Part shown: piece after piece, positions 2,194 to 45,366 of the stretch
Numbering within the stretch: the first letter of the stretch is position 1
Layout: every line of letters starts with the position of its first letter
Assembly: GCF_002160255.1 (NCBI RefSeq)
Contig: NZ_NFKF01000006.1
Span: forward strand, 1 to 64,000
Length of the DNA: 64,000 nucleotides
From: Olsenella sp. An188
GTDB lineage: Bacteria; Actinomycetota; Coriobacteriia; Coriobacteriales; Atopobiaceae
Direction of reading: 5' to 3'
Notes under the pieces: generated by a model
Told to the model about the DNA's origin: nothing
The model's database searches: none
Seen by the model: only the letters and a program-made list of their open reading frames with translations
Translations under genes and position numbers: made by a program

Positions 2194-2516
2194 GCGGCGC
2201 CCGGCCGGTCGGCGCGGGGCCGGCAGCAAGGCGCAAGACGAGGGAGCCAGATAATAGACGAGGGCCCGTCGACGCCGTGGCGTCCGGGCCCCCACTTTGG
2301 CAGCTGCCAAGCTTTTAAGCTCTACAGTGCGGGCCCGCGCGAATCCCTCTCGGCGCGCGCCCGCCCCCTGCGCAGTCAGTATCATTCCCCATCGCCGGCG
2401 TCTCAGACGCAAGGCTCCGGCGAACGGCGCTCTTCACCGGCCAAGCACATCTCGAAGACAAGTCCTCCACAGGGCGCTAGGATTTGTCTGGTAGGTAGAC
2501 CCGAAGGAGATCACGC
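2194..2516. other. Intergenic region between ade and the YcxB-like gene
   Basis: The main feature is a hairpin at 2262-2291, with GGGCCCG and GACGC arms and their complements around a short loop, separated only by a two-base bulge. It is followed by a poor T tract (ACTTTGG), so it is at best a weak terminator for ade. The rest shows no ORF and no convincing promoter, although a TAGGAT hexamer at about 2480 could be a -10 box for the next gene. Confidence 0.45.
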
Positions 2517-3089: not shown

Positions 3090-3337
3090 CGTCACCGCAT
3101 GCGCGCGGTCCGCACGCCCCGTCCCCGGGGCCGGCGCGGACCGCGCGCGGCCTGTCACGCGCTCCAGACCACGGCCTCGTACGGCCGCAGCGTCCTCGCG
3201 GCCGGGGCGTCTTCATAGTTGCCGAGAAGAACCTCGGCGCCGTCCGCCAGAAGGTGTGACGGCCCACCCTGTCCTGATCGTCGCGTCGCGCGCGCTATAC
3301 TGGCCCAAGTTCTTCTCGCCGTAAAGGAGGCACCCCC
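3090..3337. other. Spacer with small GAGAAGAAC hairpin and esterase promoter region
   Basis: A hairpin GCCGAG-AAGAAC-CTCGGC spans 3221-3238, its loop formed by the recurrent CGAGAAGAACC word. A TATACT -10-like hexamer at about 3297-3302 is followed immediately by another copy, GTTCTTCTCGCC, at 3309, then the AAAGGAGG ribosome binding site of the first esterase. Confidence 0.4.
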
Positions 3338-4195: not shown

Positions 4196-4263
4196 CGAGC
4201 CGTCGGGCCCTTGGGACGCACGTTGTTTGAGCGGATCGACCGACCTCACGGGGAGGGACGCGC

Positions 4264-5133: not shown

Positions 5134-6107
5134 CGGCCGCCGAGGGCGCGGCGGACCCGCGTGCGGAACTCCCCGAGGAAGCGCGGGACGTCAACGCCAA
5201 GGGCCACGTCGCAGCGCTTCTCCGCGTCACGCAGGCGCGCGGGGTCGCAGACCGTGCGGCCGCGCGTGGGGCCCGTGAGGTCCACGCACAGGTTGGCCGA
5301 CAGGCACCTCACGAGCGTGGGGTCGATGGCCGCGGCCACGGCCAGGGGGTCGTGAAGGGCGCAGCCGCCGAGGCACGGGTTGTTCTTCTCGTAGATGCCA
5401 ATGTAGTAGTCGGCCATCTGGGCAAAGAGCCTCCCCGCGGCCCCGAGCTCGCGCCAGGCGGCGGTCTCCTCTCGGGTGAGGATCGCCTGGTGCGTGACGT
5501 CGAGCCCGACCATGCACGTCCGCAGCCCCGAGTGCAGCACGGCGTCCGCGGCCTCCGGATCGTTGTGGACGTTGGCCTCGGCGCAGGGCGTCACGTTGCC
5601 CGGCACGGTGAGCGCGCCGCCCATGAAGGTCACGCGCGGGAGGCGGGAGGCGAGCCCCGGCGAGCGCCGAAGGGCGGCCGCGAGGTTCGTGAGGGGCCCG
5701 GTCGGTACGTAGCAGAGCTCCCGATGCCGCATAACCCCCGCGTTTGCGATGAAATCCACCCCGTTTTGGCGGGTTGTGCGGCATCCGCAGGGCAGCACCG
5801 CCCCGCCAAGGCCGTTCTCCCCGTGTATGCGGACCACCCCCGGAGGCGGCGAGAAGGGTCCCGCGGACGCAGTCGGACGATCAAGTCCCAGGTAGACGGG
5901 AATGTCAGGCCGACCGAGAAGCTCGAGGAGGGCGCAGGTGTTGCGCGCGGCGGTCTCCATGGTCACGTTGCCGTAGCTCGACACCACGCCAACGAGCTCG
6001 ACCTCGGGGCTGCCGAGGGCGTAGGCCAGCGCGAGGGCGTCGTCGATGCCGGTGTCGAGGTCGAGCACGAGCGGGATGCGAGAGGTGCCCCGGATGTCGT
6101 CACTCAT
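5130..6107 (-). CDS. Nucleoside hydrolase (IUNH family)
   Basis: Hydrolyses the N-glycosidic bond of ribonucleosides, releasing base and ribose. The family signature DLDTGIDDALAL near the N-terminus provides the calcium-binding aspartates. MGGALTVPGNVTPCAEANVHNDPEA matches the conserved core, and CALHDPLAVAAAIDP near the C-terminus supplies the last Asp ligand. Two ATGs lie close together at 6113 and 6107; the second is better spaced from GGAGG and gives 325 residues. It ends in the shared CTAG with the esterase. With ade it suggests purine/nucleoside salvage, but the base preference is not visible. Confidence 0.88.
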   Translation of the reverse strand: MSDDIRGTSRIPLVLDLDTGIDDALALAYALGSPEVELVGVVSSYGNVTMETAARNTCALLELLGRPDIPVYLGLDRPTASAGPFSPPPGVVRIHGENGLGGAVLPCGCRTTRQNGVDFIANAGVMRHRELCYVPTGPLTNLAAALRRSPGLASRLPRVTFMGGALTVPGNVTPCAEANVHNDPEAADAVLHSGLRTCMVGLDVTHQAILTREETAAWRELGAAGRLFAQMADYYIGIYEKNNPCLGGCALHDPLAVAAAIDPTLVRCLSANLCVDLTGPTRGRTVCDPARLRDAEKRCDVALGVDVPRFLGEFRTRVRRALGGR

Positions 6108-6182
6108 AGCCATGCCTCCGCGTTCCCCGCGCTGGACGTCCCGACTGGGGCGCTCGGCCCCCGTCGCCCCGCACCCAAGACG

Positions 6183-7217
6183 TTACTCCTTCTTGCCAAA
6201 CGCGTTCATGAGGATGGTCACGATGGCGCAGAGCAGTCCGCCCACGACCCAGGCCATCCAGAACCACATGGCAGAGGTGCCCTCGGGGTTGAAGCTGGAC
6301 GGGTCGCCAGACGAGAAGACCGGGGCGAACAGCAGGACAAAGCCCACGATCGTGGCGACGATCATGATGACGCCGCACACCGCGCCGATCTTCTCGCCGG
6401 AGCGCTTCCGCTCAAGCAGGGCGGAGCGGACCTCCTCGTCAACCTGGGCACCCACGATGTCCTCCACCTCGAGTTCCTCGGCGACGCTCCTGTTGTACTC
6501 GGCCACGTTGGTGCGGCCGAGGAGAATCCCGTAATGGATGATGTTCCACACGCCCAGGGCGATGAAGAACATCAGGAAGAACAGGGCCACGTTCTCCCGC
6601 GCATGGTCCTCCCCCAGCACCAGCAGAAAGCCGATGCCCACAAAGATGAGCGCAATGCCGCCGACAAGCCCTGCCGAGAACGACTTGCGGGCGCGGGCCC
6701 GGTCGTCCTCGGTGTAGAAGTCCTCCACGTAGGGATGCGCCCTCTGGAAGGCAGCGTGGTCCATGCAGGCCGGGACCAGAAACACGAGACCCACCAGAAC
6801 GCCCGCCAAGACAATGAGGACGAACAGGCCGTCACGCGCGCCGACCGGGACGAGGTCGGCCGCACCCTCAAAGAAGAGGCCGATTGCGATTCCCGCGAGG
6901 ATGGCGGCCACGCCCGTGGGGACCTTCCACGCCAGCATGCGCTGGTGCTCGTCGTAGCCGCAGACGTCAGTGGGCGGGCCGGCGGGGACGGCGGCGGCCG
7001 GCTCCGGCGAGCGGCCGGTGAGGTCGCCCTGGACGAGGTCGTCGAGCGAGCACTCGAAGACCTGACAGATCTTGAGGAGCTTGTCCATCTCCGGATAGCT
7101 CTTCTCCGCCTCCCACTTGGTCACGGACTGGCGGGAGACGCCGAGCAGCATGGCGAGCTGCTCCTGGGTCATGTTGCGCGTTGCGCGGAGGTGCTGGAGG
7201 TTGTCGCGAAAGCTCAT
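6183..7217 (-). CDS. HTH (XRE) regulator fused to a membrane domain
   Basis: Residues 5-65 form a Cro/C1-type helix-turn-helix (NMTQEQLAMLLGVSRQSVTKWE). A short linker leads to a C-terminal part with about six hydrophobic segments grouped in pairs, and an acidic and charged cytoplasmic stretch between them. The 344-residue arrangement is known from Gram-positive membrane-bound XRE regulators, but no ligand or target is assigned. GAAGGG precedes the ATG. The nucleoside hydrolase lies about 75 bp downstream and could be in the same transcript. Confidence 0.75.
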   Translation of the reverse strand: MSFRDNLQHLRATRNMTQEQLAMLLGVSRQSVTKWEAEKSYPEMDKLLKICQVFECSLDDLVQGDLTGRSPEPAAAVPAGPPTDVCGYDEHQRMLAWKVPTGVAAILAGIAIGLFFEGAADLVPVGARDGLFVLIVLAGVLVGLVFLVPACMDHAAFQRAHPYVEDFYTEDDRARARKSFSAGLVGGIALIFVGIGFLLVLGEDHARENVALFFLMFFIALGVWNIIHYGILLGRTNVAEYNRSVAEELEVEDIVGAQVDEEVRSALLERKRSGEKIGAVCGVIMIVATIVGFVLLFAPVFSSGDPSSFNPEGTSAMWFWMAWVVGGLLCAIVTILMNAFGKKE

Positions 7218-29462: not shown

Positions 29463-30758
29463 CTACGCCTCGGGCCGGATGACCTCGACGCCGCCCATGT
29501 AGGGGCGCAGGGCCTCGGGCACCGTGATGGAGCCGTCGGCGTTCTGGTAGTTCTCCATGATGGCGGCCATCGTGCGGCCCACGGCCAGGCCCGAGCCGTT
29601 CAACGTGTGCACGAAGCGCGTGCCCTTGAACTCGGCCGGGTCCTTGTAGCGGATGTTGGCGCGACGGGCCTGGAAGTCCCAGCAGTTGGAGCAGGAGGAG
29701 ATCTCCTTGTAGGCGTTGTAGCTGGGCAGCCAGACCTCGAGGTCGTAGCACTTGCAGGCGGAGAAGCCGATGTCGCCGGTGCACAGCGTCACCACGTGGT
29801 AGGGCAGGCCGAGGGCCTGGAGAACCGCCTCGGCCTCGGCGACCATGCTCTCGAGCTGGTTCATGGAGTCCTCGGGCTTGGCGAACTTGACCATCTCGAC
29901 CTTGTCGAACTGGTGCACGCGGATGATGCCGCGCGTGTCACGCCCGGCAGAGCCCGCCTCCTCGCGGAAGCACGGCGTGAAGGCGGTGTACCACAGCGGC
30001 AGCTGGGAGGCGTCGAGCACCTCGCCGCGGTGCAGGTTGGTGAGCATGACCTCGGCGGTGGGGATGAGGTACATGTCGGGCTGCACGTGGTAGAGGTCGT
30101 CCTCGAACTTGGGCAGCTGACCGGTGCCAAAGAGGGTGTCGCGGTTGGTGATGACGGGCATCCACCACTCCTTGAAGCCCGCCTTGACGTGCATGTCCAC
30201 CATGAAGCTGATGAGCGCGCGCTCCATGCGGGCGCCCATGCCGCCGAGCACGTAGAAGCGGGTGCCGGCCACCTTGACGCCGCGGTCGAAGTCGATCATG
30301 CCCGTGGCGGGGCCGAGGTCCCAGTGCGCCTTGGGCTCGAAGCCGTCCGCCGCGAAGTCGCGCGGGGTGCCCCAGCGGCGCACCTCGGGGTTGTCGGAGT
30401 CGTCGCGCCCGTAGGGCACGCTCTCGTGCGGGATGTTGGGGATGGCGGCCACCAGGTCAAAGAGCTCCTGCTCGACGGCGCCGCGACGCTCGTCGAGGGC
30501 GGCGATGCGGTCCTTGTTGGCGGCGACCTGGGCCTTGGCGGCCTCGGCCTCGTCCCTCTTGCCCTCGCGCATGAGCTGGCCGATCTGTTTGGAGACGGCG
30601 TTGCGCTCGGCCTGGAGCTTCTCGACCTCGGAAATCACGGAGCGGCGCTCCTCGTCGAGCTCGAAGAACTTCTCGCGATCCCAGTGGGCGTTCTGGCGAG
30701 ACTCGCACGCCCTGTCCACGGCGTCGGGGTTCTCGCGAACGAACTTGATGTCGAGCAT
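29463..30758 (-). CDS. serS: Seryl-tRNA synthetase
   Basis: Charges tRNA-Ser with serine. The 431-residue class II synthetase has the N-terminal coiled-coil tRNA-binding arm (about residues 30-100, ISEVEKLQAERNAVSKQIG), motif 2 FREEAGSAGRDTRGIIRVHQF and motif 3 GSGLAVGRTMAAIMEN. Start at 30758 follows CAAGGAGCC; the longer frame to 30986 overlaps the divergent small gene's promoter and is rejected. No T-box leader is visible. Confidence 0.96.
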   Translation of the reverse strand: MLDIKFVRENPDAVDRACESRQNAHWDREKFFELDEERRSVISEVEKLQAERNAVSKQIGQLMREGKRDEAEAAKAQVAANKDRIAALDERRGAVEQELFDLVAAIPNIPHESVPYGRDDSDNPEVRRWGTPRDFAADGFEPKAHWDLGPATGMIDFDRGVKVAGTRFYVLGGMGARMERALISFMVDMHVKAGFKEWWMPVITNRDTLFGTGQLPKFEDDLYHVQPDMYLIPTAEVMLTNLHRGEVLDASQLPLWYTAFTPCFREEAGSAGRDTRGIIRVHQFDKVEMVKFAKPEDSMNQLESMVAEAEAVLQALGLPYHVVTLCTGDIGFSACKCYDLEVWLPSYNAYKEISSCSNCWDFQARRANIRYKDPAEFKGTRFVHTLNGSGLAVGRTMAAIMENYQNADGSITVPEALRPYMGGVEVIRPEA

Positions 30759-30815
30759 GCTGGCTCCTTGCTCCGGGTTGCTGACTCGCCGCCGGCGCCT
30801 CCGCGTCGGCTCCCC

Positions 30816-30827
30816 AAGTATATACTT
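30816..30827. promoter_or_regulatory. Shared palindromic -10 region
   Basis: AAGTATATACTT is a perfect 12-bp palindrome providing a TATACT -10 hexamer on both strands, for serS (minus) and the small membrane gene (plus). No clear -35 elements. If both are used, the two promoters are mutually exclusive. Confidence 0.45.
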
Positions 30828-30864
30828 GTGCGGAAAAAACGACGCGTTTCTCAGGAGGCGGCAC

Positions 30865-31056
30865 ATGCAGGCGATCGGCGACTTCTTCACGTGGCTCTTC
30901 AACGACACGACGGGCGTCATCTGCCTCATCGGCGGCGGAATCGTCATCTGCCTGCTCATCGCCCTGCTCATGGAGCGCAAGACCAAGCAGCGCTACTTCA
31001 ACCACGAGAAGACCGACAGCGACTGGGACCTCTTCGACGACGATGACGACGAGTAG
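30865..31056 (+). CDS. Small single-pass membrane protein
   Basis: A 63-residue protein with an amphipathic start (MQAIGDFFTWLFN), one transmembrane helix (about residues 17-37), a basic patch (ERKTKQR) and a very acidic tail (DSDWDLFDDDDDE). CAGGAGG precedes the ATG. The basic-inside rule suggests a cytoplasmic acidic C-terminus. Function unknown; the clean ribosome binding site and typical membrane topology argue that it is real. Confidence 0.7.
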   Translation: MQAIGDFFTWLFNDTTGVICLIGGGIVICLLIALLMERKTKQRYFNHEKTDSDWDLFDDDDDE

Positions 31057-31397: not shown

Positions 31398-31407
31398 GTG
31401 CTGGGAT

Positions 31408-31436
31408 ATAGTACCGCAACCCTCCTCCGCTGCCAA
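31408..31436 (-). promoter_or_regulatory. Promoter of tRNA-Leu
   Basis: On the minus strand TTGGCA, 17-bp spacer, TACTAT, 10 bp before the tRNA 5' end. Confidence 0.8.
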
Positions 31437-31523
31437 GTGCTTTTTCTTGAGAAGTGCGTGGCGCGACCACGGCGCGGTAGAATGGCCCTGCACGGCCGCA
31501 AGCAGCTTAAACGAGGAGGAGCC

Positions 31524-33290
31524 GTGAACGAGACGCCCACACGGGAGCGCGTGCCGATGCGCGACGGCGCCCCCCAGCAGCAGACCCCGCACGACGAGGT
31601 CCTTCTTGGCAGGTACCGCGTTCTCGAGCGGCGCGGGACGGGCGGCTTTGGGACGGTGTGCACCTGCTGGGACACCCGGCTGCAGCGTCGCGTGGCGATC
31701 AAGCGCATGCCGCTCGCCGCCGAGACGGGCGCCACCGCCGAGGAGGCCCTGGCCGAGGCGCGCACGGTCTCCCTGCTCGCCCACCCCAACATCGTCACCC
31801 TCTACGACTACGAGACGCAGGGCGCCTACGCCTACCTCGTGATGGAGTACGTCGACGGCCTCAACCTCGCCGAGTTGCTCGCCCGCGTGGAGGGCGGGCG
31901 CCTCACGCCCGACGAGTGCGCCCACGTGCTCGACTCCGTGGCCCGGGCGCTCGACTACGCGCACGAGAACCGCGTGCTGCACCTCGACATCAAGCCGACC
32001 AACATCATGATCGACCGTCGCGGCACGGTTAAGCTGGCCGACTTTGGCATGGCGACGCTCGCATCCGCGGCGGGCTACGGCGACGCGCGCGGCGGGACCG
32101 TGGGCTACATGCCCCCCGAGCAGATCGAGGGGATGCTCGTGGACGAGCGCGCCGACGTGTTCTCGCTCGCCGTGGTCGTCTGGCAGGCGCTCACCGGGAG
32201 CAACCCCTTCCTGGCCCGCACCGCCGCCGAGTCGCTCTCGAAGATCAACCGCGGGCCGTCCGGGCGCACCCGCCCCGAGCTGGACGCCGAGGGCCAGCAG
32301 GCCCTGCTCGAGGCGCTCTGCCCCTCGCCCTCGGGGCGCATGGCCTCGGCCCTGCAGCTCGCCGAGGAGCTCGACGCCAGCCTCGGCGACGCCCAGGAGG
32401 GGGCAGCCTCCCTTCGCGAGCTCGTCGAGCAGGCCGAGGAGGACGACGGGCAGGACAGCCGGCGGCCGAGAAGAACCCCCGCTCTGACGCTCGACGCCCC
32501 GCGCGCGGCGGCCGTCCTGCGCCGCGGCCTCACCGCGCTCGGCACCTTCGCCGTCCTGCGCGTGGTCCTGCCCGCCGCGCCGGGGGCAACGCCTCAGGTC
32601 GTGGCCGTGGCGTCGCTGCTGTGCTGCGCGGCCGCGGCGGCGTGGCCGCCGCTCGGGGCGCCCCTTGCCGCCCTCGCCCTCGCCTACGTCCTCGCCGCCA
32701 CGAGCGTGACGGGCGCGACGCTGCTGATCGCCATGGCGCTCGGCGCGGGCGTCGTCGTCTGGTGGGCGCTCGCGGGCAGGAGGGACCACCTCTCCTCGCT
32801 CGCCGTCCTGCTCCCCTGCTGCCTCCCCTCGCCCGTCTCGGGCGCGGCGCTCGCGGGCTTTGCGCTCGACCCCGCCCCCGCCGCGGCCACCGGGGCGCTC
32901 GGCTACCTCGTTGGGGTGCTCTTCCACGCGTGCGCGACCTCGGGGTTTGCCGGCGGGGCGCTGCTCGTGGCGCTCGGGTCGACCTGCTCCGACCCCACCT
33001 TCTGGGTCATGCTCGCCGCGAGCGCGGCGTGCGCGGCCGTCTCCTCGGCCGTGGCGCTCAGGGGCTCGGTCGCCGCGGGCATACTCGGTCAGGCGCTCGG
33101 CCTCGCCTGCCTGCTTGGCTCTGGGGTTCTCGCCGCCAGCGTGGAGAATGCCGGTATATGGGCCTCCCTCGACTGGGACACGATGGTCGTTGCGATACTC
33201 TTGTTTGTGCTTTTGTGCATTGCGACTGTCCTGAGAGGCCCGCTCTACGAGGGCCCGGAAGGCGGGGGTACCCATGAGTTTCCTCAGTGA
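31524..33290 (+). CDS. Ser/Thr protein kinase with polytopic membrane C-terminus
   Basis: A 588-residue kinase, first gene of the envelope-signalling operon. The kinase domain (about residues 29-285) has the glycine loop GTGGFGTV, Lys60 in VAIKRM, catalytic loop HLDIKPTN (Asp155) and DFG at 173. The usual HRD arginine is leucine, as in kinases not regulated by activation-loop phosphorylation. A cytoplasmic linker follows, then about nine hydrophobic helices (325-575), instead of the single helix and sensor domain of PknB. Start is GTG after GAGGAGG. A TAGAAT -10 lies at 31478-31483. It overlaps fhaA by 17 bp. Confidence 0.85.
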   Translation: MNETPTRERVPMRDGAPQQQTPHDEVLLGRYRVLERRGTGGFGTVCTCWDTRLQRRVAIKRMPLAAETGATAEEALAEARTVSLLAHPNIVTLYDYETQGAYAYLVMEYVDGLNLAELLARVEGGRLTPDECAHVLDSVARALDYAHENRVLHLDIKPTNIMIDRRGTVKLADFGMATLASAAGYGDARGGTVGYMPPEQIEGMLVDERADVFSLAVVVWQALTGSNPFLARTAAESLSKINRGPSGRTRPELDAEGQQALLEALCPSPSGRMASALQLAEELDASLGDAQEGAASLRELVEQAEEDDGQDSRRPRRTPALTLDAPRAAAVLRRGLTALGTFAVLRVVLPAAPGATPQVVAVASLLCCAAAAAWPPLGAPLAALALAYVLAATSVTGATLLIAMALGAGVVVWWALAGRRDHLSSLAVLLPCCLPSPVSGAALAGFALDPAPAAATGALGYLVGVLFHACATSGFAGGALLVALGSTCSDPTFWVMLAASAACAAVSSAVALRGSVAAGILGQALGLACLLGSGVLAASVENAGIWASLDWDTMVVAILLFVLLCIATVLRGPLYEGPEGGGTHEFPQ

Positions 33291-34410
33291 TTTCGAGGCG
33301 CGCATAGGATCTGTGTTCGGCGCGGCTCCGCAGGGCTACACCGAGCCCTTCTCTTTCAAGAAGCTCGCCAAGCGTGCGGCGCGCGAGATGGAGAACGAGA
33401 CCTACGAGATTGACGGCGTGGACACCGCCCCCGCCCTCTACACCGTGCTCGTCTCCGCCTCCGACGACTCCCTCATGCGCCCGCTCTACGAGCAGATCAC
33501 CTACGAGACCGCGTCCTTCGTGACGGCCCAGGCCCAGAAGAAGGGCTACGCCTTCGTGGGCAACCCGCTCGTCCGCTTCATGGTCGACCCCTCGCTCAAG
33601 TCCGGCAAGTTCGCCGTCTTTGCCGAGAACGTCGACGCCGGCACCCTCGCGCGCCTTCGCGAGGAGGAGCGCGCCTTCCTGGCCGGCAACTCCAGCGCCG
33701 GCGGCGCGGCGGCCCAGCTCCACCCCCGCGGAGACCGGCCGCACCGCAGGCAGGCGGCCGCACAGGCGACGCCGAGCGTCCCCGCGCCCACGCCCGCGCC
33801 GCTCGCCGGCAACGACGCCGGCCTCGACGTCATCCCCAGCGACTTCTCCGCGGACTTCCCCGAGCCCGCCCCCGTGGCGTCGGCCTCCTCGTCCACGCCG
33901 ATGCCGGTGCCCGTCGTTCCCGCCGCCCCCATCGCGGCGGCCGAGGCCCCGGCGTCCGTGCCCGTCTCGGTGCCCCAGACCCAGCGGCGCAACGTCCCGC
34001 TCGTCGACGTGAGGCGCGGCGTCGGGACCGAGGCCGTGGCGGGTGCCGCCGTTGCCGGCGCCGCCGTCGCGGGCGTCGCGGCCGGGGCCGGGCGTCCCGC
34101 GGGCGCCCACGACTCCTCGGCGTCCTGCCTGCTCATCGACCGCCAGACCGGCCGCACCTTCACCGGGCGCGCCCCCTTGGCCGTCATCGGCCGCGAGCGC
34201 TCCCAGGCCGACGTGGTCCTGCGCGACCCCAACGTCTCCCGTCGCCACGCCCAGCTCACCTTCGACGGGCGCGACTGGCGCATCACCGACCTCAACTCCA
34301 CCAACGGAACGCTCGTCAACGACGTCGACGTCTCCGAGTGCGTCCTGCGCGACGGCGACCTCATCACGGTCGGCCTCGTCAACCTCGAGTTCAGGGAGAA
34401 CCCGCGATGA
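33274..34410 (+). CDS. fhaA: FhaA: DUF3662 and FHA domain protein
   Basis: A 378-residue phosphothreonine-binding adaptor. Residues 1-125 form the DUF3662 domain (FLSDFEARIGSVFGAAPQG, then a conserved FVTAQAQKKGYAFVGNPLVRFM). A long Pro/Ala-rich linker runs to about 285. The C-terminal FHA domain (about 295-375) has GRERSQADVVLRDPNVSRRHAQL and DLNSTNGTLVN. In mycobacteria FhaA binds phosphorylated partners of PknB and modulates peptidoglycan synthesis. It overlaps both neighbours, so translation is coupled. Confidence 0.93.
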   Translation: MSFLSDFEARIGSVFGAAPQGYTEPFSFKKLAKRAAREMENETYEIDGVDTAPALYTVLVSASDDSLMRPLYEQITYETASFVTAQAQKKGYAFVGNPLVRFMVDPSLKSGKFAVFAENVDAGTLARLREEERAFLAGNSSAGGAAAQLHPRGDRPHRRQAAAQATPSVPAPTPAPLAGNDAGLDVIPSDFSADFPEPAPVASASSSTPMPVPVVPAAPIAAAEAPASVPVSVPQTQRRNVPLVDVRRGVGTEAVAGAAVAGAAVAGVAAGAGRPAGAHDSSASCLLIDRQTGRTFTGRAPLAVIGRERSQADVVLRDPNVSRRHAQLTFDGRDWRITDLNSTNGTLVNDVDVSECVLRDGDLITVGLVNLEFRENPR

Positions 34411-34820
34411 TCGACATCGTCCTGTTCGTGGGGCGCGTCCTTCTCGTCGTCGTCCTGTACGTCTTCCTCTTCGCCGTCATGCGCACCGGCGTGGGCCTCG
34501 TCAAGGGGCAGCGCCGCGACGCCGCCATCTGGGCCGTCGACGTCGAGAAGGGCACGCGCTCGCTGCGCGGCCTGCACGTCGACATCCTCGGCCCCGTGGT
34601 CATCGGCCGCTCCCCGTCATCCGACATCGTGATCGACGAGCCCTACGTCTCCTCCACCCACGCGCGCCTCACCCTCCAGGGCCCCGCGCTCGTGCTCGAG
34701 GACCTCGGCTCCACCAACGGCACCCTCGTCAACGGCCACGTCATCGGGCAGCCCGTCACGCTGCGCGAGGCCGACGAGGTCCAGATCGGCGACACGATCA
34801 TGAGGGTGAGCCGCGGATGA
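34407..34820 (+). CDS. fhaB: FhaB: membrane-anchored FHA domain protein
   Basis: A 137-residue protein with an N-terminal transmembrane helix (about residues 5-25) and an FHA domain (55-137) with GRSPSSDIVIDEPYVSSTHARL and DLGSTNGTLVNG. This is the actinobacterial FhaB/FipA layout, which recruits phosphorylated division or envelope proteins. Start and stop overlap neighbours by ATGA. Confidence 0.92.
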   Translation: MIDIVLFVGRVLLVVVLYVFLFAVMRTGVGLVKGQRRDAAIWAVDVEKGTRSLRGLHVDILGPVVIGRSPSSDIVIDEPYVSSTHARLTLQGPALVLEDLGSTNGTLVNGHVIGQPVTLREADEVQIGDTIMRVSRG

Positions 34821-36112
34821 TGAGCCCGGAGCCCTCCATGACCGCCCCGCTCGAGCCCGCCAACGCCCCCGGACGCGCCGAGATGCCCGTCGAGGGGCGC
34901 GCCGGCGCGGACGCCGTCTCCGGCGCCAACGAGTTCATCTCGTGGGGCGCGCGCAGCGACGTCGGGCTCGTGCGCGGCCACAACGAGGACTCCTTCCTGC
35001 TCAGGACGCCCCTGTTCGTGGTGTCCGACGGCATGGGCGGCCACGCCGCAGGCGAGGTCGCGAGCTCCATCGCGGTCGAGACCATAGGCGAGCGCGCGCC
35101 CGGGACCGCCGACGACGTCCTTCTCGGCGCGGCCGTCGAGGCGGCCAACGCCAGCGTCATCGCCGCGGCCGAGGCGGGCATCGGCAAGCCCGGCATGGGC
35201 TGCACCGCCACGGCCGTCCTCATCGAGAAGAACAAGATGGCCGTGGCCCACGTGGGAGACTCGCGGGCCTACGTCCTGCACCACGGCACGCTCGTGCGCA
35301 TCACCCACGACCACTCCTACGTGGAGGAGCTCGTTGACTCCGGCCAGATCACGGCCGACGAGGCGCGCACGCACCCCTCCCGCTCGATCATCACCCGCGC
35401 CCTCGGCTCGGACCCGGACATGTACGCCGACCACTTCTCGCTCGAGGTCAACGACGGGGACCGCGTCATCCTGTGCTCGGACGGCCTCTCGTCCATGATC
35501 TCCGACAGCGAGATCGAGTCGGTCGCCGTCTCGAGCGCCACGCCGCAGCAGGCGGCCGACAACCTCGTCGCCGCGGCCCTCACGGCCGGCGGCGCCGACA
35601 ACGTGACGGTCGTCGTCGTGGACGTGCTCAACGACGGACTCGCCGAGGCGGCGCGCAGGCGCCTGTTCAGGCGGGGAGCCGCCTTCGCGGGCGTCTTCGT
35701 GGGGATCGTCGTGGTGACGCTGCTCGTCGCCCTGGCGTTCATCCGCGGGGAGTGGTACCTCGGCGTCAACGGGACGACCGTCGGCCTCTACCGCGGCGTC
35801 AAGGGCGAGTTCCTGGGAATCTCCCTGAGCGAGCTCGTGGGCGAGAGCGCCGTCGAGATCTCGGACCTGCCCGTCTCCCTCCAGGACCAGCTCGAAAGCG
35901 GCATCCGCGTCGCCAACGAGCAGGCCGGGCGGGACACCATCGACTCCTACCACCAGCAGATAGACGCCGAGAAGACCCGTGCGGCCGAGCTGGCCGAGAC
36001 GACGCGCTCGGAGACCGACCCGAGCGCCGTCGCCGACTCCGGCGGCACCGAGGCGAGCCCCGGGGCCGAGACCGAGTCGGACGGGACCGCATCTGAGAAC
36101 GGGGGTGAGTGA
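34817..36112 (+). CDS. pstP: PP2C-family Ser/Thr phosphatase
   Basis: A 431-residue phosphatase that reverses Ser/Thr kinase signalling. The catalytic domain (about residues 40-275) has [42 protein letters not shown] and [12 protein letters not shown], supplying the metal-binding aspartates. A transmembrane helix (287-308) and an external region of about 120 residues rich in Ser, Thr and Glu follow, as in mycobacterial PstP. It overlaps fhaB by 4 bp; the SEDS-PBP gene starts 1 bp after its stop. Confidence 0.94.
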
Positions 36113-36113
36113 C

Positions 36114-39080
36114 ATGCCGAGAAGAAGCAGGTACACGGGAGCGATATCGCGCTCCCAGATGGAGGCGGTCGCCGCCCCGGCGCCCGTCGGCGCCCCGGTC
36201 GCAGGCGGTCACGGTCGCCGCAACACCGAGCTCATGCTCCTGTGCCTCGCGGCGGTGCCGGTCATCCTGCTCTACGCGATGTACGTGCTGCACTCCAACG
36301 CGCAGCTCTCCCTCACCACGCTCGGCGTGCCGATCGGCCTGTTCGCAGCCTTCGCGGCGGCCCACGTGGCCATCAGGTTCCTCGCCCCGGGCGCGGACCC
36401 GGCCATCCTGCCCATCGTCTTCGCCCTCTCGGGCGTGGGCATCACCTTCCTCACGCGGCTCTCCCCCGAGGGAGCCGTCAACCAGGTGATCTGGCTCTTC
36501 CTCTCGGTGGCCGCCATGGTGGCCGTCCTCGTCGTGGTCAGAGACCTCGACTCGCTCGCGGACTACAAGTACACGCTCGGGATCGCGGGCGTAGTCCTTC
36601 TCATCCTGCCCATGATTTTGGGCACCGAGCAGAACGGCTCCAAGCTCTGGATCTACATCGGCAGCTTCTCCATCCAGCCTGGCGAGTTCGCCAAAATCCT
36701 CATCACGCTCTTCCTGGCGTTCTACCTGGCAACCAACCGCGAGGCCCTCTCCGCCTCCATGCGGCGCTTTGGCCCCTTCAGCCTGCCGCGCCTGAGGATG
36801 CTGCTCCCGCTGCTCGTGATGTGGGGCATCAGCCTGCTCGTGGTGGTCTTTGAGACCGACCTGGGCAGCGCCCTTCTGTTCTTCGCCTTCTTCGTCATCA
36901 TGATCTACGTGGCCACGGGTCGCGTGAGCTACGTCGTGGTGAGCCTCGCGCTGCTCGCCGCCGGCGGCGTGGCCTGCTACTTCCTGTTCGGCCACGTGCA
37001 GAACCGCGTCAACATCTGGCTCGACCCCTGGTCGGCGGCCTCGAGCGGCGGCTACCAGATCGTGCAGTCGCTCTACTCGCTGGCCGACGGCGGCCTGGTG
37101 GGCGTCGGCATCGGCAACGGCCTCTCCACCACGATCCCGTTCGTGCAGAGCGACTTCATCTTCTCCGCCATCGGCGAGGAGATGGGGCTTCTCGGCTCCT
37201 CCGCCGTCCTCATCATGTTCCTGCTCTTCTGCGTCCGCGGGCTCGCCACGGCGGCGCGCGCCAAGTCCGACTGCTCGGCCTTCGCGGCCGTCGGCCTCAC
37301 GTGCGCGATCTCCTTCCAGGCGTTCCTCATCGTGGGCGGCGTCACCAAGCTGCTCCCGCTCACGGGCGTGACCCTACCCTTCATGAGCCAGGGCGGCACG
37401 TCGCTTCTCGCCAGCTTCCTCATCGTTGGCCTGCTGCTGCGCGCCGGCGACGAGGGCACCGGACGCGAGGTCGAGCTCCGCAGCGGGACCGAGCGCGCCA
37501 GCGAGCGCCGCGACCCGCTGCTCACCCTCGCGGGCCAGGCGGGCGCCGGCGCAGGCGCGCACGCCGCCTCGGTGGTCCACGGCAGCCACGCGCGCGGCTC
37601 CTTCGGCCTCACCACGGCCGAGTCGGGCGTCCTCGGGCGCGTCGCCCTCGGCAAGCGCCTCACGAGCCTCATCACGGTCTTCGCGCTCTTCTTCGCCGCG
37701 CTCGTGGCCAACCTCACCTACGTCCAGCAGATCGACGCCTCGCGCATCCAGAACCTGCCGAGCAACAACCACACGATCGCCAAGAGCGCCTACGTGCAGC
37801 GCGGCGCGATCATCACCTCCGACGGCGTCACGCTCGCCGAGAGCGTGCAGCAGGCCGACGGCACCTACCTGCGCAACTACCCCCAGGGCTCGCTCGCGCA
37901 GCACACGGTGGGCTACGTCTCCACCCAGTACGGCAGCGCGGGCATCGAGGCCTCGATGAACGAGACCCTGACCGGCCACAAGGACTACTCAAACTGGCGC
38001 AGCGCGCTCTACTCCATGGCGGGCGTCTCGCAGAGCGGCTCCACCGTCGCGCTCACCATCAACTCGCAGATTCAGCGCGCCGCCGAGCAGGCGCTTGAGG
38101 GCTACACCGGCGCGATCGTGGTCCTCGACCCCAAGACCGGGGCGGTTCTCGCCAAGGCGTCCTCGCCGACCTACACGGTCTCCGAGCTCGATGCCGCCAT
38201 CCAGGGCACCAACGGCGAGCTGCTCGACCGCACCACGCAGGCGCTCTACTCGCCCGGCTCCACGTTCAAGGCCGTCACCCTCTCCGCCGCGCTCGACTCC
38301 GGCACCGTGACGCTCGACGACGTCTACTACGCCGGCCCCTCGCTCGAGATCGGCGGCGCCGAGGTGACCAACTACGGCGGCAACGACTACGGCAGCCCCA
38401 CCCTGCGCGAGGCCTTCGCGCTCTCCTCGAACACGGCGTTCGCCCAGGTGGGCACCGAGCTCGGCGCGAGCACGCTCGTGAGCTACGCCAACGCCTACGG
38501 CTACGGGCGCAAGATCGGCCAGGACTTTGACTGCCTCACCTCGCTCATGCCCGACCCCTCCGAGATGACGGAGTGGGAGACCGCGTGGGCGTCCTGCGGC
38601 CAGCCCGTGGGCCAGCACGAGAGCCCGGCCGGCCCGCAGACCACCGTCATGCAGAACGCCGTGGTGGCCCAGACCATCGCCAACGGCGGCGTGGCGATGG
38701 ACCCCTACGTCGTTGACCACGTCCTCTCCCCAGAGGGCGTCGTGACCTCCCAGACCACGCCCCGCTCGCTCGGGCAGGTCATCTCCTCCCAGACGGCCGA
38801 CCGGATGAAGGAGGCCATGCTCGGCGTCGTCGACCACGGCACCGGACGTCGCGCCCAGGTCGCGGGAGTGCAGGTTGCCGGCAAGACCGGCACCGCGGAG
38901 GTCGAGAACGGCAACATAAACTCGTTCTTCATCGGCTTCGCGCCGTACGACAACCCGACGCTGGTCATCTCGGTCTGCGTCGAGGGCCAGGGTGAGGACG
39001 TCGAGGGGTTTGCCGCCGGCCTGGCCGGCCAGGTGCTCGCCTCGGCGCTCCAGGTCCAGGCGTCAGGCGCGGGCAGCTGA
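36114..39080 (+). CDS. SEDS glycosyltransferase fused to class B penicillin-binding protein
   Basis: A 988-residue protein joining two peptidoglycan enzymes that are normally separate. Residues 40-443 are a FtsW/RodA SEDS polymerase of about ten helices, with [12 protein letters not shown], essential Asp304 in [21 protein letters not shown] and [14 protein letters not shown] Gly/Ala-rich cytoplasmic linker (444-515) leads to one helix (520-538), a pedestal region and a transpeptidase domain with SxxK (Ser716, Lys719), SxN (Ser771-Asn773) and KTG (924-926). In other actinobacteria rodA and pbpA are adjacent genes at this operon position, which supports a gene fusion. The reading frame is uninterrupted. 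Whether it acts in elongation or division is not visible. Confidence 0.93.
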
Positions 39081-39202: not shown

Positions 39203-41206
39203 ATGTCAGCGATGATGCTCGGCGGACGCTACCAGGTCCAGGACAAGATCGGCGCGGGAGGCATGGCCACGGTGTACCGTGGCCTCGACGAGGTGCTCGG
39301 GCGTACCGTGGCCATCAAGACGATGCTGCCCCAGTACGCCAACGACCCCTCCTTCGCTGCGCGATTCAAGCAGGAGGCGCAGGCCGCGGCGGCGCTCCAG
39401 AGCCCCTACATCGTGAGCGTCTACGACTGGGGCAAGGACGCCGACACCTACTACATCGTCATGGAGTACCTGCGCGGAACCGACCTCAAGAGCGGCATCC
39501 GCAAGCACGGCGCCCTCGACTGCAAGAAGGTCGCCCAGATCGGCTCGCAGATCGCGCAGGCGCTCTCGGTGGCCCACAGGCACGACATCATCCACCGCGA
39601 CATCAAGCCGCAGAACATCATGGTGCAGCCCGACGGCAACATCAAAGTGATGGACTTCGGCATCGCGCGCGCCAAGAACAGCCACCTCACGCAGGACAAC
39701 TCCGTCCTCGGCACCGCGCACTACGTCTCCCCCGAGCAGACCCAGGGCAAGGAGCTCGGCCCCACCACCGACATCTACTCGCTCGGCATCGTGATGTACG
39801 AGGCCGCCACGGGACAGGTCCCCTTCCAGGGCGACGACGCCATCTCGGTTGCCCTCAAGCAGGTCAACGAGCAGCCCAAGCCGCCCAGCCAGCTCAACCC
39901 CGCCGTTGACCCGAGCCTCGAGTCCATCATCCTCAAGTGCATGCAGAAGAACCCCGCCGAGCGCTTCCAGACGGCCGACGAGCTCTACCGCACCCTGCGC
40001 GACTACCTCGCCGGGCGCATGCAGGCGGTCAACAGCGCCACGGCGATGCTGCCGGCCCAGCCCACCAACAAGCTCGACCGCGGAGCGGGCACCATCCCCG
40101 CCGCCGGCGGGACCGCCTCCATGCCGCGCGTCGAGCGCGCCAACCGCTACCGCGGCCAGAGCGCGACCGAGCAGGCCGCCGAGCAGGAGGCCGAGCGCCA
40201 GCGCAAGCGTCGTCGCAACATCATCCTCGGCGTCATCGGGGGCATCGCGGTTCTTGCCGTGGTAATCTTTGCCGTCACGAGCCTGCTCGGCTCCGGGACG
40301 ACCATGCGCACGGTCCCCAACCTCATCACGCTCACCCAGGATGAGGCGATCGAGGAGATCGAGGCCGCCGGCTTCGTCGCGGGCACGCCTGAGGAGGTCT
40401 ACAGCAGCAGCTACCCCGAGGGACAGGTCTGCGAGCAGGACCCGCGCGCCTACCGCGAGATGCCCGAGGGCTCCACGATCAACTTCAAGGTCTCCAAGGG
40501 CGAGGAGCCCGTGGAGCAGACGAGCGTCCCCGACCTCACCAACAAGACCGAGGAGGAGGCGCAGGCGCTTCTCGCCGAAGCCAACCTCAAGGGACGCGCG
40601 GGTGAGGAGCGCGAGGACGCCAACATCGAGCAGGGGCTCATCTGCGACCAGGACTACGATCCCGGCAGCAGCGTCGACGTGGGCACCACCATCACCTACT
40701 ACGTCTCCAGCGGCAGCGGCCAGGAGGTCATCCCCAACGTCGAGGGCGACGACGAGAGCACCGCACGCTCGCGCCTCGAGTCCGCCGGCTTCGTCGTGAG
40801 CAGCCAGACCTCGAACAGCGACACGGTGGCCGAAGGCCACGTCATCTACACCACGCCCGGCGTCGGCGAGACCGCCGACGTGGGCTCCACCGTCACCATC
40901 TACGTCTCCTCCGGACCTGCCGCGCCCAAGGAGTACGACGTGCAGTACGTGGTGGGCTGGACCTACGCGGAGGCCTACGCCGCCCTCACCAACCAGGGAT
41001 TCAGCCCCGTCCTGGCCACCGGCAACTCCGCGGAGGGCATCGTCTCGAGCCAGTCCGTGACCGGGACCGCGCCCAAGGGCGCCGAGATCGTCCTCACCAC
41101 GCGCACGCCTGACACCGGCTCCGGAGACGGCGAGGGCACCGATGGCGAGACCGAGGGCAACGGGGCTCAGGGAATCACCGGGCTCTCGGCCAACACTGGG
41201 GCATAG
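39203..41206 (+). CDS. pknB: PASTA-domain Ser/Thr protein kinase
   Basis: A 667-residue transmembrane kinase sensing muropeptides or lipid II. The kinase domain (about residues 9-270) has IGAGGMATVYRG, Lys39, HRDIKPQN (Asp133) and DFG (151). A basic juxtamembrane stretch precedes the single helix (339-361). Four PASTA repeats begin near residues 370 (VPNL), 441 (VPDL), 509 (IPNV) and 578, the last degenerate. A Thr/Gly/Asp-rich tail follows. AGGAG precedes the ATG. It lies 122 bp after the SEDS-PBP gene and ends the operon at a strong terminator. Confidence 0.95.
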   Translation: MSAMMLGGRYQVQDKIGAGGMATVYRGLDEVLGRTVAIKTMLPQYANDPSFAARFKQEAQAAAALQSPYIVSVYDWGKDADTYYIVMEYLRGTDLKSGIRKHGALDCKKVAQIGSQIAQALSVAHRHDIIHRDIKPQNIMVQPDGNIKVMDFGIARAKNSHLTQDNSVLGTAHYVSPEQTQGKELGPTTDIYSLGIVMYEAATGQVPFQGDDAISVALKQVNEQPKPPSQLNPAVDPSLESIILKCMQKNPAERFQTADELYRTLRDYLAGRMQAVNSATAMLPAQPTNKLDRGAGTIPAAGGTASMPRVERANRYRGQSATEQAAEQEAERQRKRRRNIILGVIGGIAVLAVVIFAVTSLLGSGTTMRTVPNLITLTQDEAIEEIEAAGFVAGTPEEVYSSSYPEGQVCEQDPRAYREMPEGSTINFKVSKGEEPVEQTSVPDLTNKTEEEAQALLAEANLKGRAGEEREDANIEQGLICDQDYDPGSSVDVGTTITYYVSSGSGQEVIPNVEGDDESTARSRLESAGFVVSSQTSNSDTVAEGHVIYTTPGVGETADVGSTVTIYVSSGPAAPKEYDVQYVVGWTYAEAYAALTNQGFSPVLATGNSAEGIVSSQSVTGTAPKGAEIVLTTRTPDTGSGDGEGTDGETEGNGAQGITGLSANTGA

Positions 41207-42121: not shown

Positions 42122-43003
42122 TTACGCCCTCACGGGCTTGAACTCGATTCCGGTGATGATCTGGAATGCCTCGGCGTAGCGGGCGGAGGTGCCCTCGACG
42201 ACCTCGGCGGGGATGCGCGGCGGCTCGCCGGTCATGTCCCAGTTGGCACGCAGCCAGTCGCGCACGTACTGCTTGTCGTAGCTCGGCTGGACGTGGCCCT
42301 CGGCGTAGCCCTCCGCCGGCCAGAAGCGGCTGGAGTCGGGCGTGAGGCACTCGTCGATGAGCGTGAGCTTGCCGTCGATGAAGCCAAACTCGAACTTGGT
42401 GTCGGCGATGATGATGCCGCGGGTCGCCGCGTAGTCAGCGGCGGCCTGGTAGATGGAGAGGGAGGCGTCACGCAGCTGCTCGGCCACGTCGGTGCCCACG
42501 ATCTCGCAGCAGCGCTCGAAGGAGATGTTCTCGTCGTGGTCGCCCTGCTCGGCCTTGGTGGACGGGGTGAAGATGGGCTCGGGGAGCTTGGACGCCTCGG
42601 TGAGACCCGCGGGGAGCTTGATGCCGCAGACGGTTCCGTCCTCGTCGTAGGTCTTCTTGCCGGAGCCGGTGAGGTAGCCGCGCACGATGCACTCGATGGG
42701 CACGGTCTGGGCCTTCTTGACCAGCATGGAGCGGCCGGCGAGGTAGTCCGCGTAGGGCTTGAACTCCTCGGGGAGGTCCGCCACGTCGCAGGAAATCATG
42801 TGGTTGGGGATGAGGTCCGCAAAGCGCTCGAACCAGAACGCCGAGATGCGCGTGAGGATCTCGCCCTTGTGGGGGATCTCGTCGGGCAGGATGAAGTCAT
42901 AGGCGCTGATGCGGTCGGACGCCACCATGAGCAGGCTGTCGCCGCAGTCGTAGATGTCGCGCACCTTGCCGCGCGAGTCCGGACGAAGTTCCATCTCAGC
43001 CAT
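42122..43003 (-). CDS. purC: SAICAR synthetase
   Basis: Joins CAIR and aspartate with ATP hydrolysis in de novo purine synthesis. The 293-residue protein is the bacterial/yeast-length form, with GKVRDIYD, the nucleotide-binding VASDRISAYDFILPDEIPHKG, CIVRGYLTGSGKK, and IIIADTKFEFGF plus LIDECLTPDSSRFWP. Start at 43003 follows AAAGGA; a TATACT -10 lies at 43040-43045 (minus strand). The longer frame to 43051 would include the promoter. Confidence 0.95.
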   Translation of the reverse strand: MAEMELRPDSRGKVRDIYDCGDSLLMVASDRISAYDFILPDEIPHKGEILTRISAFWFERFADLIPNHMISCDVADLPEEFKPYADYLAGRSMLVKKAQTVPIECIVRGYLTGSGKKTYDEDGTVCGIKLPAGLTEASKLPEPIFTPSTKAEQGDHDENISFERCCEIVGTDVAEQLRDASLSIYQAAADYAATRGIIIADTKFEFGFIDGKLTLIDECLTPDSSRFWPAEGYAEGHVQPSYDKQYVRDWLRANWDMTGEPPRIPAEVVEGTSARYAEAFQIITGIEFKPVRA

Positions 43004-43116
43004 GCTGCCATCCTTTCGATGTCGTATCCACAAACTCCCAGTATACGTCACTGGGGCCAGGCGTGTGGGGGATGGACGGGCGCCGCGTGGCGCGGCCGGC
43101 GCGTCCTGCCGGGGTG

Positions 43117-44637
43117 CTACTCGTCGCGCGGCTTGCGCGGGCGCCGCAGCGGGATGCGCAGCGTGAAGGTGGTGCCCTTGCCGAGCTCGGACTCCACGAG
43201 GATCGTCCCGTTGTGGCGGTCCACAATCTCCTTGGTGATGGCCAGGCCCACGCCCAGGCCGCCCGAGACGCGCTCGCGGCTCACGTCGGAGCGCCAGAAG
43301 CGCGAGAAGGTCTGGGGGATGTCCTCCTTGGCGATGCCGATGCCCGTGTCCTGCACGGAGACGAGCACGTCGGAGCGGTCCTGGCGCAGCGAGACCTTGA
43401 CCCAGCCGTCTGCGTTCGTGTAGCGCATCGCGTTGCTCATGAGGTTGACCACGGCCTCGCGGATGAGGTCGGGGTCGACGTCGGCGTAGAGCTCGCCGTG
43501 CGTCTCGTCCACGAAGCGCAGGTGCAGCCCGCGCTCGTGGAAGAGCTGGTGCTGGGCGGAGACGAGGCTGCGCACGAGATAGACCATGTCGGTCCGCTCG
43601 GCCTTGACCTCGGTGGTGCCGTTCTCGAGACGCGAGAGCCTCAGCATCGCGTCGATCAGGCGCGAGAGCCTGCGCACCTCGCCGGCGATGGTCTCGAAGT
43701 GCTCGTCGTCGGCCGGCAGCACGCCGTCCTGCATGGCCTCGATCGTTGCCTGGAGCGCCATGAGCGGCGTGCGCAGCTCGTGGGCGACGTCGCCGGTGAG
43801 CCGGTGCTCGAGCTTGAGGTCGCGCTCGATCGTGCTCGCCATGTCGTCGAACGTCTCGCCGAGCTGGCCGATCTCGTCGGAGCCCGTCACGCCGGAGCGC
43901 GCCGTGAGGTCGCCGTTCCTGATCTGCTTGGCCGTGGAGGTGATGCGCTGGATGGGCCGCGCGATGGAGCGCGAGACGAAGTAGCCGATCACGCAGGCGA
44001 GAACCGCGGCGATGGCGGCCGCCGTGGCGATGGCCCCGTAGGAGTTGGAGCGGAAGGCGGAGTCGGTCTTGGTGAGCAGCGCGTCAGACCCGAAGGCCCA
44101 CAGGCGCACCGTGCCCACGACCTCGCCGTCGGGCGCCGTGATGGAGGCGCTCACCACGGCCTCGTGCGAGGTGGGGACCTGCGAGGGAACGGGCTTCTCG
44201 CCGCGGGCGGAGCCGGTCGAGTCGGCCGAGGCCCAGGTGTCGTCGTACAGGACGGTGCCGTCGGCGGCCGTCACCTGGACCACGATGTCCGGGGAGACCG
44301 ACGAGGCGGACTCCGCCACCGCCGCCACGTCCTCGTCGAGCTCGCCCTCGCGCGCGTAGGCCTCGGAGATTGAGGCGGCCGTGGAGTCGGCGATGGCCTG
44401 CATGTTGGAGCGGGTGTAGGCCATGAACTGGCCCTCCCACACCACGCCGAGCACCGCGACGAGCACGAGCGCCGTCATGACCGCGGTGAGCGCGAAGGCG
44501 AAGCTCAGGCTCGTCGCGTACGGGCGCCCGCCCTTAGGGCGCGGCTTTATGGTGTTCCACGAGCTGCGCGAGGACGAGGCACGCTCGGGCGCCTCGTCGG
44601 GATGGGCGTCGTGCCCCGTCACAAAGCGAGCCGACAC
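43117..44637 (-). CDS. Sensor histidine kinase (HAMP type)
   Basis: A 506-residue membrane kinase. After a cytoplasmic N-terminus, helix 1 lies near residues 45-68, an external sensor region runs to about 190, helix 2 to 215, then HAMP (SRSIARPIQRI), a HisKA domain with DVAHELRTPL (His286) and an ATPase domain with NLMSNAMRY, DTGIGI and GGLGVGLAI. Start is GTG 6 bp after the regulator stop; no strong ribosome binding site is visible, so the exact start is uncertain. It pairs with the OmpR-family regulator upstream. Confidence 0.9.
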   Translation of the reverse strand: MSARFVTGHDAHPDEAPERASSSRSSWNTIKPRPKGGRPYATSLSFAFALTAVMTALVLVAVLGVVWEGQFMAYTRSNMQAIADSTAASISEAYAREGELDEDVAAVAESASSVSPDIVVQVTAADGTVLYDDTWASADSTGSARGEKPVPSQVPTSHEAVVSASITAPDGEVVGTVRLWAFGSDALLTKTDSAFRSNSYGAIATAAAIAAVLACVIGYFVSRSIARPIQRITSTAKQIRNGDLTARSGVTGSDEIGQLGETFDDMASTIERDLKLEHRLTGDVAHELRTPLMALQATIEAMQDGVLPADDEHFETIAGEVRRLSRLIDAMLRLSRLENGTTEVKAERTDMVYLVRSLVSAQHQLFHERGLHLRFVDETHGELYADVDPDLIREAVVNLMSNAMRYTNADGWVKVSLRQDRSDVLVSVQDTGIGIAKEDIPQTFSRFWRSDVSRERVSGGLGVGLAITKEIVDRHNGTILVESELGKGTTFTLRIPLRRPRKPRDE

Positions 44638-44643
44638 GGGGGC

Positions 44644-45366
44644 CTACTTGGCCGAGGCGTCCGCGGCCTTCTCGGGGGCCTCGAAGCGGTAGCCGACGCC
44701 GTGGACGGTGTAGAGCCAGCGCGGGTTGCGCGGGTCGTCGCCGAGCTTGGCGCGCAGGTTCTTGACGTGGGAGTCGATGGTGCGCTCGTAGCCCTCGAAG
44801 TCGTACCCGAGGACCTTCTCGACGAGCTCCATGCGCGTGTAGACGCGACCCGGGTAGCGGGCGAGCGTGGTGAGCAGCTTGAACTCGGAGGCCGTGAGGT
44901 CGACCTCCTTGCCCTCCACGAGCACCTTGTGACCGGAGATGTCGATCACGAGGTCGCCGAAGTCGAGGACCTCGAGGGCCGGCTCGGCCTCGGTGTGGGC
45001 GCGGCGCAGCAGGGCGCGCACGCGGGCGACGAGCTCGCGCGGGCTGAAGGGCTTGATGAGGTAGTCGTCGGCGCCGAGCTCGAGGCCGATGATGCGGTCC
45101 TCGACCTCGCCCTTGGCCGTGAGCATGATGATGGGCACGTTCGAGGTCTCGCGGATGGCGCGGCACACGCGCTCGCCCGAGAGCTTGGGGAGCATGAGGT
45201 CAAGGATGACGAGGTCGAAGGTGTGCTTCTCGAACTCCTCGACGGCGCTCTGGCCGTCACCGACCCCGCGCACGATGTAGTTCTCGCGCTCGAGATAGGC
45301 GGCGACGGCGTCGCGGATGGCCTTCTCGTCCTCGACCAGCAGGATCTTCTTCTCGTCTGAAGCCAT
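44644..45366 (-). CDS. OmpR-family response regulator
   Basis: A 240-residue regulator. The receiver domain has LLVEDE, phospho-acceptor Asp56 in LVILDLMLP and Lys in YLIKPF. The winged-helix domain (about 135-228) has LTASEFKLLTTLARYPGRVYTR and RTIDSHVKNLRAKLG. GGGAGG precedes the ATG. The order lipoprotein, regulator, kinase suggests that the lipoprotein may take part in sensing, as LpqB does with MtrAB. Confidence 0.93.
   Translation of the reverse strand: MASDEKKILLVEDEKAIRDAVAAYLERENYIVRGVGDGQSAVEEFEKHTFDLVILDLMLPKLSGERVCRAIRETSNVPIIMLTAKGEVEDRIIGLELGADDYLIKPFSPRELVARVRALLRRAHTEAEPALEVLDFGDLVIDISGHKVLVEGKEVDLTASEFKLLTTLARYPGRVYTRMELVEKVLGYDFEGYERTIDSHVKNLRAKLGDDPRNPRWLYTVHGVGYRFEAPEKAADASAK

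Follow-up and report, generated by a model that had tools for sequence, protein, structure and literature searches.

The stretch of DNA analyzed here, called the window, is 64,000 nucleotides of Olsenella sp. An188 (contig NZ_NFKF01000006.1, positions 1 to 64,000), and its forward-strand gene at 36114..39080 codes for a natural fusion of a SEDS polymerase and a class B penicillin-binding protein (PBP), written here as rodA=pbpA. The gene is one stop-free frame of 988 residues (103.0 kDa), as the initial annotation had read it, and that reading is borne out by the translation, the Pfam domains, and the recurrence of the frame in independent assemblies of relatives. The ATG lies one base past the stop codon of a PP2C phosphatase gene and has GGGGGTGA just 5' of it, in a Shine-Dalgarno-like stretch (36100..36107) within the end of the phosphatase gene; GGAGGTGAGTAG, which is similar, stands at the fusion-gene starts of several relatives. 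GC content at third codon positions (GC3) is 0.95-0.97 across the SEDS, linker, and PBP parts of the gene. Coordinates are those of the window, and features are on the forward strand unless marked otherwise.

Domain organization and conserved residues

The SEDS polymerase domain (residues 102-444; 36417..37445) matches PF01098 (FTSW_RODA_SPOVE) with 251 bits, above the curated family cut-off and over profile positions 17-350 of 356. The PBP half begins with a transmembrane helix (about residues 516-538 by hydropathy; 37659..37727), followed by a PbpA-type pedestal, PBP_dimer_2 (residues 563-645; 37800..38048; PF21922, 80 bits), and a transpeptidase domain (residues 666-966; 38109..39011; PF00905, 188 bits). 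The three class B motifs claimed at the outset, SxxK, SxN, and KTG, are all present, as S716TFK719, S771SN773, and K924TG926, and no GT51 domain was matched in Pfam on the 988-residue protein at E 0.001. An AlphaFold2 model built from 37 sequences (mean pLDDT 79) has twelve helices of at least 19 residues in the SEDS half, pLDDT below 50 over residues 449-507, and a helix at 506-540 that returns the chain to the membrane. A fold search named the transpeptidase half only, and SEDS structures (8bh1, 8tj3, 6pl5, and others) were matched by sequence.

Conservation was assessed in an alignment of 89 rows, the window protein and 88 relatives, in which seven pairs of rows each stand for one gene with two locus ids. 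The relatives come from 92 fused Coriobacteriia loci (sets of 36, 35, and 20, described below, plus L126), with the cut or broken loci L054, L058, L066, and L126 excluded; L045, a 97-residue fragment, is left out of the counts. S716, K719, S771, N773, K924, and G926 are invariant, and T925 is kept in 88 of the 89 rows. For the polymerase, the initial annotation had offered Asp304, in a WLDPW motif, as the diagnostic SEDS residue, while not explicitly calling it catalytic. Position 304 is Asp in only 76 rows (His in 7, Asn in 3, and Gln in 3), and the published catalytic Asp is D262 of Escherichia coli RodA and D297 of FtsW; D262, in the E. coli RodA chain 8tj3_B, aligns with D347 of the window protein, in the sequence IPFVQSDF. 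Asp304 is thus ruled out as the catalytic residue, as is a loss of the catalytic Asp in the fusion, an idea that fell once the E. coli papers placed the residue at D347. D347, predicted to be the catalytic Asp in extracellular loop 4 (ECL4), is encoded at 37152..37154, and this corrected residue is among the additions of the present work. E. coli RodA W102, Q111, E114, and D159, which PMC10449877 discusses together with D262, correspond in the same alignment to W179, Q188, E191, and D249, and these four and D347 are unvarying in 89/89 rows.

The halves are joined by a linker of 72 residues (residues 445-516; 37446..37661), delimited by the alignment and the model, with GDEGTG at one end. Its length over the 89 rows ranges from 28 to 125 residues (28-35 in 48 rows, 36-60 in 6, and more than 60 in 35); the longest, in L038, has 125 residues and is rich in AGAHAQA-like repeats. 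The middle is unconserved and predicted to be disordered, but the ends are conserved, with GDExTG where the chain leaves the membrane and LGRxALxxR ahead of the PBP helix. The LGR juxtamembrane motif (residues 507-509; 37632..37640) has L in 89, G in 87, and R in 88 rows, and T449 (codon at 37458..37460), the only broadly conserved linker Thr, is Ser or Thr in 82 rows and otherwise Pro (5 rows), Val (1), or His (1). Mean identity to the window protein is 0.67 for the SEDS half, 0.39 for the linker, and 0.58 for the PBP half.

Among 29 fused rows the juxtamembrane segment is 0.69 identical, compared with 0.24 among 12 unfused rows, the latter a value that may take in residues upstream of the true unfused PbpA starts, whereas the transpeptidase domain is similar in the two groups (0.50 and 0.48). 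The fusion thus seems, from these alignments, to have brought a new constrained junction. A relaxation of the SEDS-PBP interface by tethering was considered and is not seen, as identity in the fused rows is at least as high in both the pedestal (0.53 versus 0.42 unfused) and ECL4 (0.62 versus 0.51).

The kinase operon and other synthases of the genome

By Pfam and open reading frame analysis, the window has the gene order fhaA-fhaB-pstP-[rodA=pbpA]-pknB. The fusion is preceded by a Ser/Thr kinase gene without PASTA matches (31398..33290, start codon unsure), an fhaA-like gene with FhaA_N and FHA domains (33274..34410), an fhaB-like gene with a second FHA domain, whose ATG overlaps the fhaA stop (34407..34820), and the PP2C phosphatase gene at the pstP position (34817..36112); it is followed by a pknB-like kinase gene with four PASTA stretches (39203..41206). 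The two kinases, one phosphatase, and two FHA proteins first described around the fusion are therefore all there. Beyond them on the opposite strand are genes for a seryl-tRNA synthetase (29463-30986) and the SAICAR synthetase PurC (42122-43051), and a histidine kinase gene with a response regulator (43117-45366) is on that strand as well.

The organization resembles the actinobacterial fhaA-fhaB-pstP-rodA-pbpA-pknA-pknB operon. The fusion lies after pstP and before pknB, carries the PF21922 pedestal, and falls on the same side as the operon RodA and PbpA in trees of both halves, so domains, synteny, and trees all agree with its initial placement at the rodA-pbpA position of a kinase operon. 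It differs in that the operon RodA and PbpA are two separate proteins, in separate frames at 12/12 actinobacterial loci (L114-L125), whereas here there is a single frame. The setting is conserved: at 56/56 loci (L008-L043 and L135-L154) the fusion is preceded by an FHA gene, a PP2C gene, or both and is followed by a kinase gene; the order of the pp2c and fha genes differs in L146, L147, L152, and L154.

Counting the fusion, three genes of the source genome encode a SEDS protein and four encode a transpeptidase. The search for a second, unfused SEDS-PBP pair that had been proposed finds two: a SEDS gene with a nearby transpeptidase gene on contig C12, labelled FtsW/FtsI in the present analysis, and a SEDS and a transpeptidase gene on contig C1, less than 5 kb from mreB, labelled RodA/PBP2. 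The fourth transpeptidase gene is on contig C9. The fusion is not part of an mreB-linked Rod system, as the pair adjoining mreB on C1 is a different one and its SEDS half belongs to another clade.

Distribution and origin of the fusion

A protein scan of named genomes gave 39 loci, comprising 36 Coriobacteriia fusions (L008-L043), the fragment L045, and the non-fusions L044 and L046. Both halves are in a single frame at 36/36 of these Coriobacteriia loci, and also at 35/35 loci L047-L081 and 20/20 loci L135-L154, sets that were preselected by pedestal match or long frame; the locus sets overlap in genomes. L044 (Lachnospiraceae) was rejected as a fusion since its SEDS and PBP are in separate frames, and so was L046 (Bacilli), where the frames are also separate and the class B PBP gene is in two parts (1959-3671 of the locus), with a recombinase-like frame, recognized as such by eye, between them.

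Within the class, PF21922 matches 389 of 396 sampled genomes, a figure that includes weak matches to other PBPs, and all but five of the frames among the matches listed have at least 890 residues. In 65 genomes chosen for family breadth there is a full pedestal match in 57, in frames of more than 900 residues in 52 and of 629-808 in five, and a weak match or none in eight (G311, G145, G014, G065, G069, G093, G103, and G131). Of 47 genomes sampled across the class, 44 have the fused frame: a PF01098 search gives a SEDS frame of at least 900 residues in 41, with a pedestal of equal frame length among the matches listed for 40 of them (the exception is G094), and in G027, G373, and G385 the SEDS and pedestal share one shorter frame. 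At the G027 locus (L126; G027:C1:2358000-2364500) the frame is cut to 782 residues in a single-contig assembly, and the break, probably an assembly fault, carries FFFFKQKTAYE, which we take to be the translation of an Illumina adapter. Mapping of the taxonomic range, as suggested at the outset, thus finds the fusion near-universal in the class Coriobacteriia, with possible losses, and finds further fusions on Rhodococcus plasmids.

Elsewhere in the phylum, apart from the Rhodococcus plasmids, the two proteins are separate among the matches listed. In a PF21922 search of 296 genomes, 34 of them Coriobacteriia, frames in the other classes are mostly 475-820 residues among the matches listed. Fifteen genomes have PF21922 frames of 814-1043 residues, none of them fused among the matches listed (0/15), as the adjoining SEDS has a frame of another length in 15/15 by PF01098 search; in three further genomes with frames of 740-771 residues the SEDS is also separate, again among the matches listed.

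In a SEDS tree of 70 rows, a single branch (SH-aLRT 100) sets off the 30 fused Coriobacteriia rows, which lie with the unfused operon RodA and away from the FtsW-like and mre-linked rows; these group labels had been assigned in advance, on the basis of context and BLAST scores. A 54-row PBP tree likewise has a branch (SH-aLRT 96) that separates these 30 rows from all others, on the unfused PbpA side. Since each half is one clade beside unfused actinobacterial RodA or PbpA, one ancestral fusion is likely, and a single event in the ancestor of the class is the simplest reading of the trees.

The Rhodococcus fusions (L112, L113, H17, H18, H32, and H33) are like the window gene in being single annotated genes with the SEDS part first, but are plasmid-borne, share 26-28% identity with the window protein, and have a PF03717 pedestal or none. 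L112 (Rhodococcus pseudokoreensis plasmid unnamed4, 3791-6631) is a 946-residue SEDS-PBP gene with a PF03717 pedestal and two relatives (78-79% identity) on two other Rhodococcus plasmids. L113 (Rhodococcus sp. LW-XY12 plasmid pLW2, typed as conjugative; 1468-6199) is an 883-residue gene without a pedestal match that, like the window fusion, adjoins FHA and PP2C genes; its relative, at 45% identity, is on R. fascians D188 plasmid records. SxxK, SxN, and KTG are intact in L112 and L113. In the SEDS and PBP trees alike, the two sit on very long branches beyond the Coriobacteriia clade, so these fusions are apparently independent of the Coriobacteriia one. Starred branches keep L112 and L113 apart in the PBP tree, whereas those of the SEDS tree do not, so the exact history of the two is unsure.

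The initial annotation could not say whether such a fusion had been described. As a kind it has, since PMC10449877 notes that SEDS-PBP fusion open reading frames exist in nature, citing the Rhodococcus RHA1 genome paper, and transpeptidase halves from the class are in the PDB. A literature search by titles and abstract openings, with most subscription papers outside it, found no paper on a class-wide fusion in Coriobacteriia; what is added here is the near-fixation in the class and the conserved junction. The structures are of Atopobium parvulum (4jbf, 4n1x, 4qjg, 4r0q, 4r1g, 4r23, 4r3j, and 4ra7; 64-68% identity) and Eggerthella lenta (4mnr; 44-47% identity), and differ from the window protein in being the soluble half alone, titled (putative) peptidoglycan glycosyltransferase and not fusion. 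Residue numbering in the A. parvulum chains reaches 953, so that they derive from a chain of at least this length, and the titles of these entries refer to complexes with seven different beta-lactams (penicillin G and V, cloxacillin, dicloxacillin, nafcillin, cephalothin, and cefapirin). After these entries of the class itself, the next solved fold is Mycobacterium tuberculosis PbpA, with Z of about 50.

Engineered RodA-PBP2, SpoVE-SpoVD, and FtsW-PBP3 fusions have the same order as the natural gene, SEDS first and PBP second, but join other pairs by man-made linkers (TSGSGSGS or GGGSx3); according to PMC6207328 and PMC10449877, such fusions are functional and RodA-PBP2 is active. Class A PBPs also have a polymerase and a transpeptidase in one chain, and their polymerase domain is described as without homology to SEDS.

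A probable single-chain synthase and its alternatives

We consider it highly probable that the gene codes for a single-chain peptidoglycan synthase, in which the operon RodA and PbpA were joined end to end, probably once, in an ancestor of the Coriobacteriia. The SEDS half, with about twelve predicted membrane helices and the putative catalytic D347, would polymerize lipid II; the chain would then follow the cytoplasmic face, the side predicted for the linker, and re-enter the membrane by the PBP helix, and the transpeptidase half would crosslink the new strand outside via S716. Pairing and a 1:1 ratio would be built in, a covalent stoichiometry that follows from the frame provided that the chain stays uncleaved in the cell, as we presume, and activation would, as in separate pairs, continue to run through the pedestal-ECL4 interface. 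The fusion would be a third synthase besides the FtsW/FtsI-like pair and the mreB-linked RodA/PBP2 pair, any assignment of it to a growth mode being provisional, and the neighboring PknB/PstP/FHA module would likely tune it.

Several points weigh against this reading. The fused frame was not found in three of the 47 class-wide genomes (G311, G065, and G069), nor did an FhaA_N search match any of the three, and true loss of the operon in some of them is possible. G065 has part of a transpeptidase (48% identity) at the edge of a contig, and in G093, which is not one of the 47, part of a SEDS protein (53% identity) is present; G311, G069, and G131 gave no FhaA_N match and no fusion, and may have lost the whole kinase operon or have assembly gaps there. 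Both trees are quick ones with no bootstrap and a midpoint root for drawing only. The structure prediction of the fused chain proposed initially does give the helices and a disordered linker, but at a pTM of 0.57 the relative placing of the two halves is not established. The literature search found no biochemistry for a full-length natural fusion of this class, and the linker may be cleaved in the cell, by analogy with an engineered fusion that was partly cut in its linker.

That the frame is a sequencing or assembly artefact, or two genes merely sharing a frame, is extremely improbable: errors do occur at the locus, as in G027, but the error there breaks the gene instead of fusing it, the same frame recurs in independent assemblies (all of L008-L043), GC3 is steady along the gene, and both linker ends carry conserved motifs. 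A SEDS half without catalytic activity, serving only as a scaffold to anchor or activate the transpeptidase, is also very unlikely. The variability of position 304 would fit such a role, but the five residues aligned with those of E. coli RodA do not vary, and the SEDS half is on average nearer to the window protein than the PBP half. Cutting of the linker after translation, or additional production of the PBP half from an internal start, would yield a two-protein complex. The predicted disorder of residues 449-507 is compatible with cutting, and PMC6207328 reports partial linker cleavage in an engineered RodA-PBP2 fusion; short linkers of 28-35 residues are nonetheless common (48/89). An in-frame start after a Shine-Dalgarno-like 5-mer is present near the junction in 14 of 88 relatives, in a crude test with no control, but the same test finds none in the other 74, and window codons 440-524 contain no ATG and, besides CTG, only GTG487, with no ribosome site. 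With the fusion retained class-wide though one stop codon would split the gene, a two-protein product of either origin is unlikely.

The initial annotation had called the linker, then put at 70 residues, an obvious place for phospho-control. In its fuller form this would make the junction a phospho-switch, with PknB phosphorylating the linker (T449 is the best candidate) and FHA binding setting the activity of both halves. The kinase gene and the FHA and/or PP2C gene flanking the fusion at all 56 loci, the Ser or Thr at position 449 in most rows, the nearly invariant LGR, and the higher juxtamembrane identity of fused rows are all consistent with it. Against it, the middle of long linkers is unconserved and linker length varies several-fold, position 449 is Pro, Val, or His in a few rows, and unfused pairs are beside a kinase in the same kind of operon (12/12 loci), so the operon setting does not single out the linker. 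These points weaken the proposal, leaving the phospho-switch as a tentative possibility with T449 as the candidate site. It is doubtful that the fusion is a class-wide obligate single chain, fixed once, whose junction (GDExTG...LGRxALxxR) is a docking or phospho-control point for PknB, PstP, and FHA proteins and forms one switch for polymerization and crosslinking.

As a single-chain synthase, the fusion would mean that nearly all of the sampled Coriobacteriia have a polymerase and a crosslinker in one chain where most bacteria use two separate proteins. Arguments on whether SEDS proteins and class B PBPs stay associated, and on how activation is passed between them, have drawn largely on two-protein systems and engineered fusions, and a class-wide natural fusion would offer a complex of set 1:1 composition for purification and structure determination; with the Atopobium transpeptidase half already crystallized with beta-lactams, half of that structure is in hand. 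It also provides a naturally occurring check on whether a covalent tether loosens the interface between the two enzymes, and a first look suggests that it does not.

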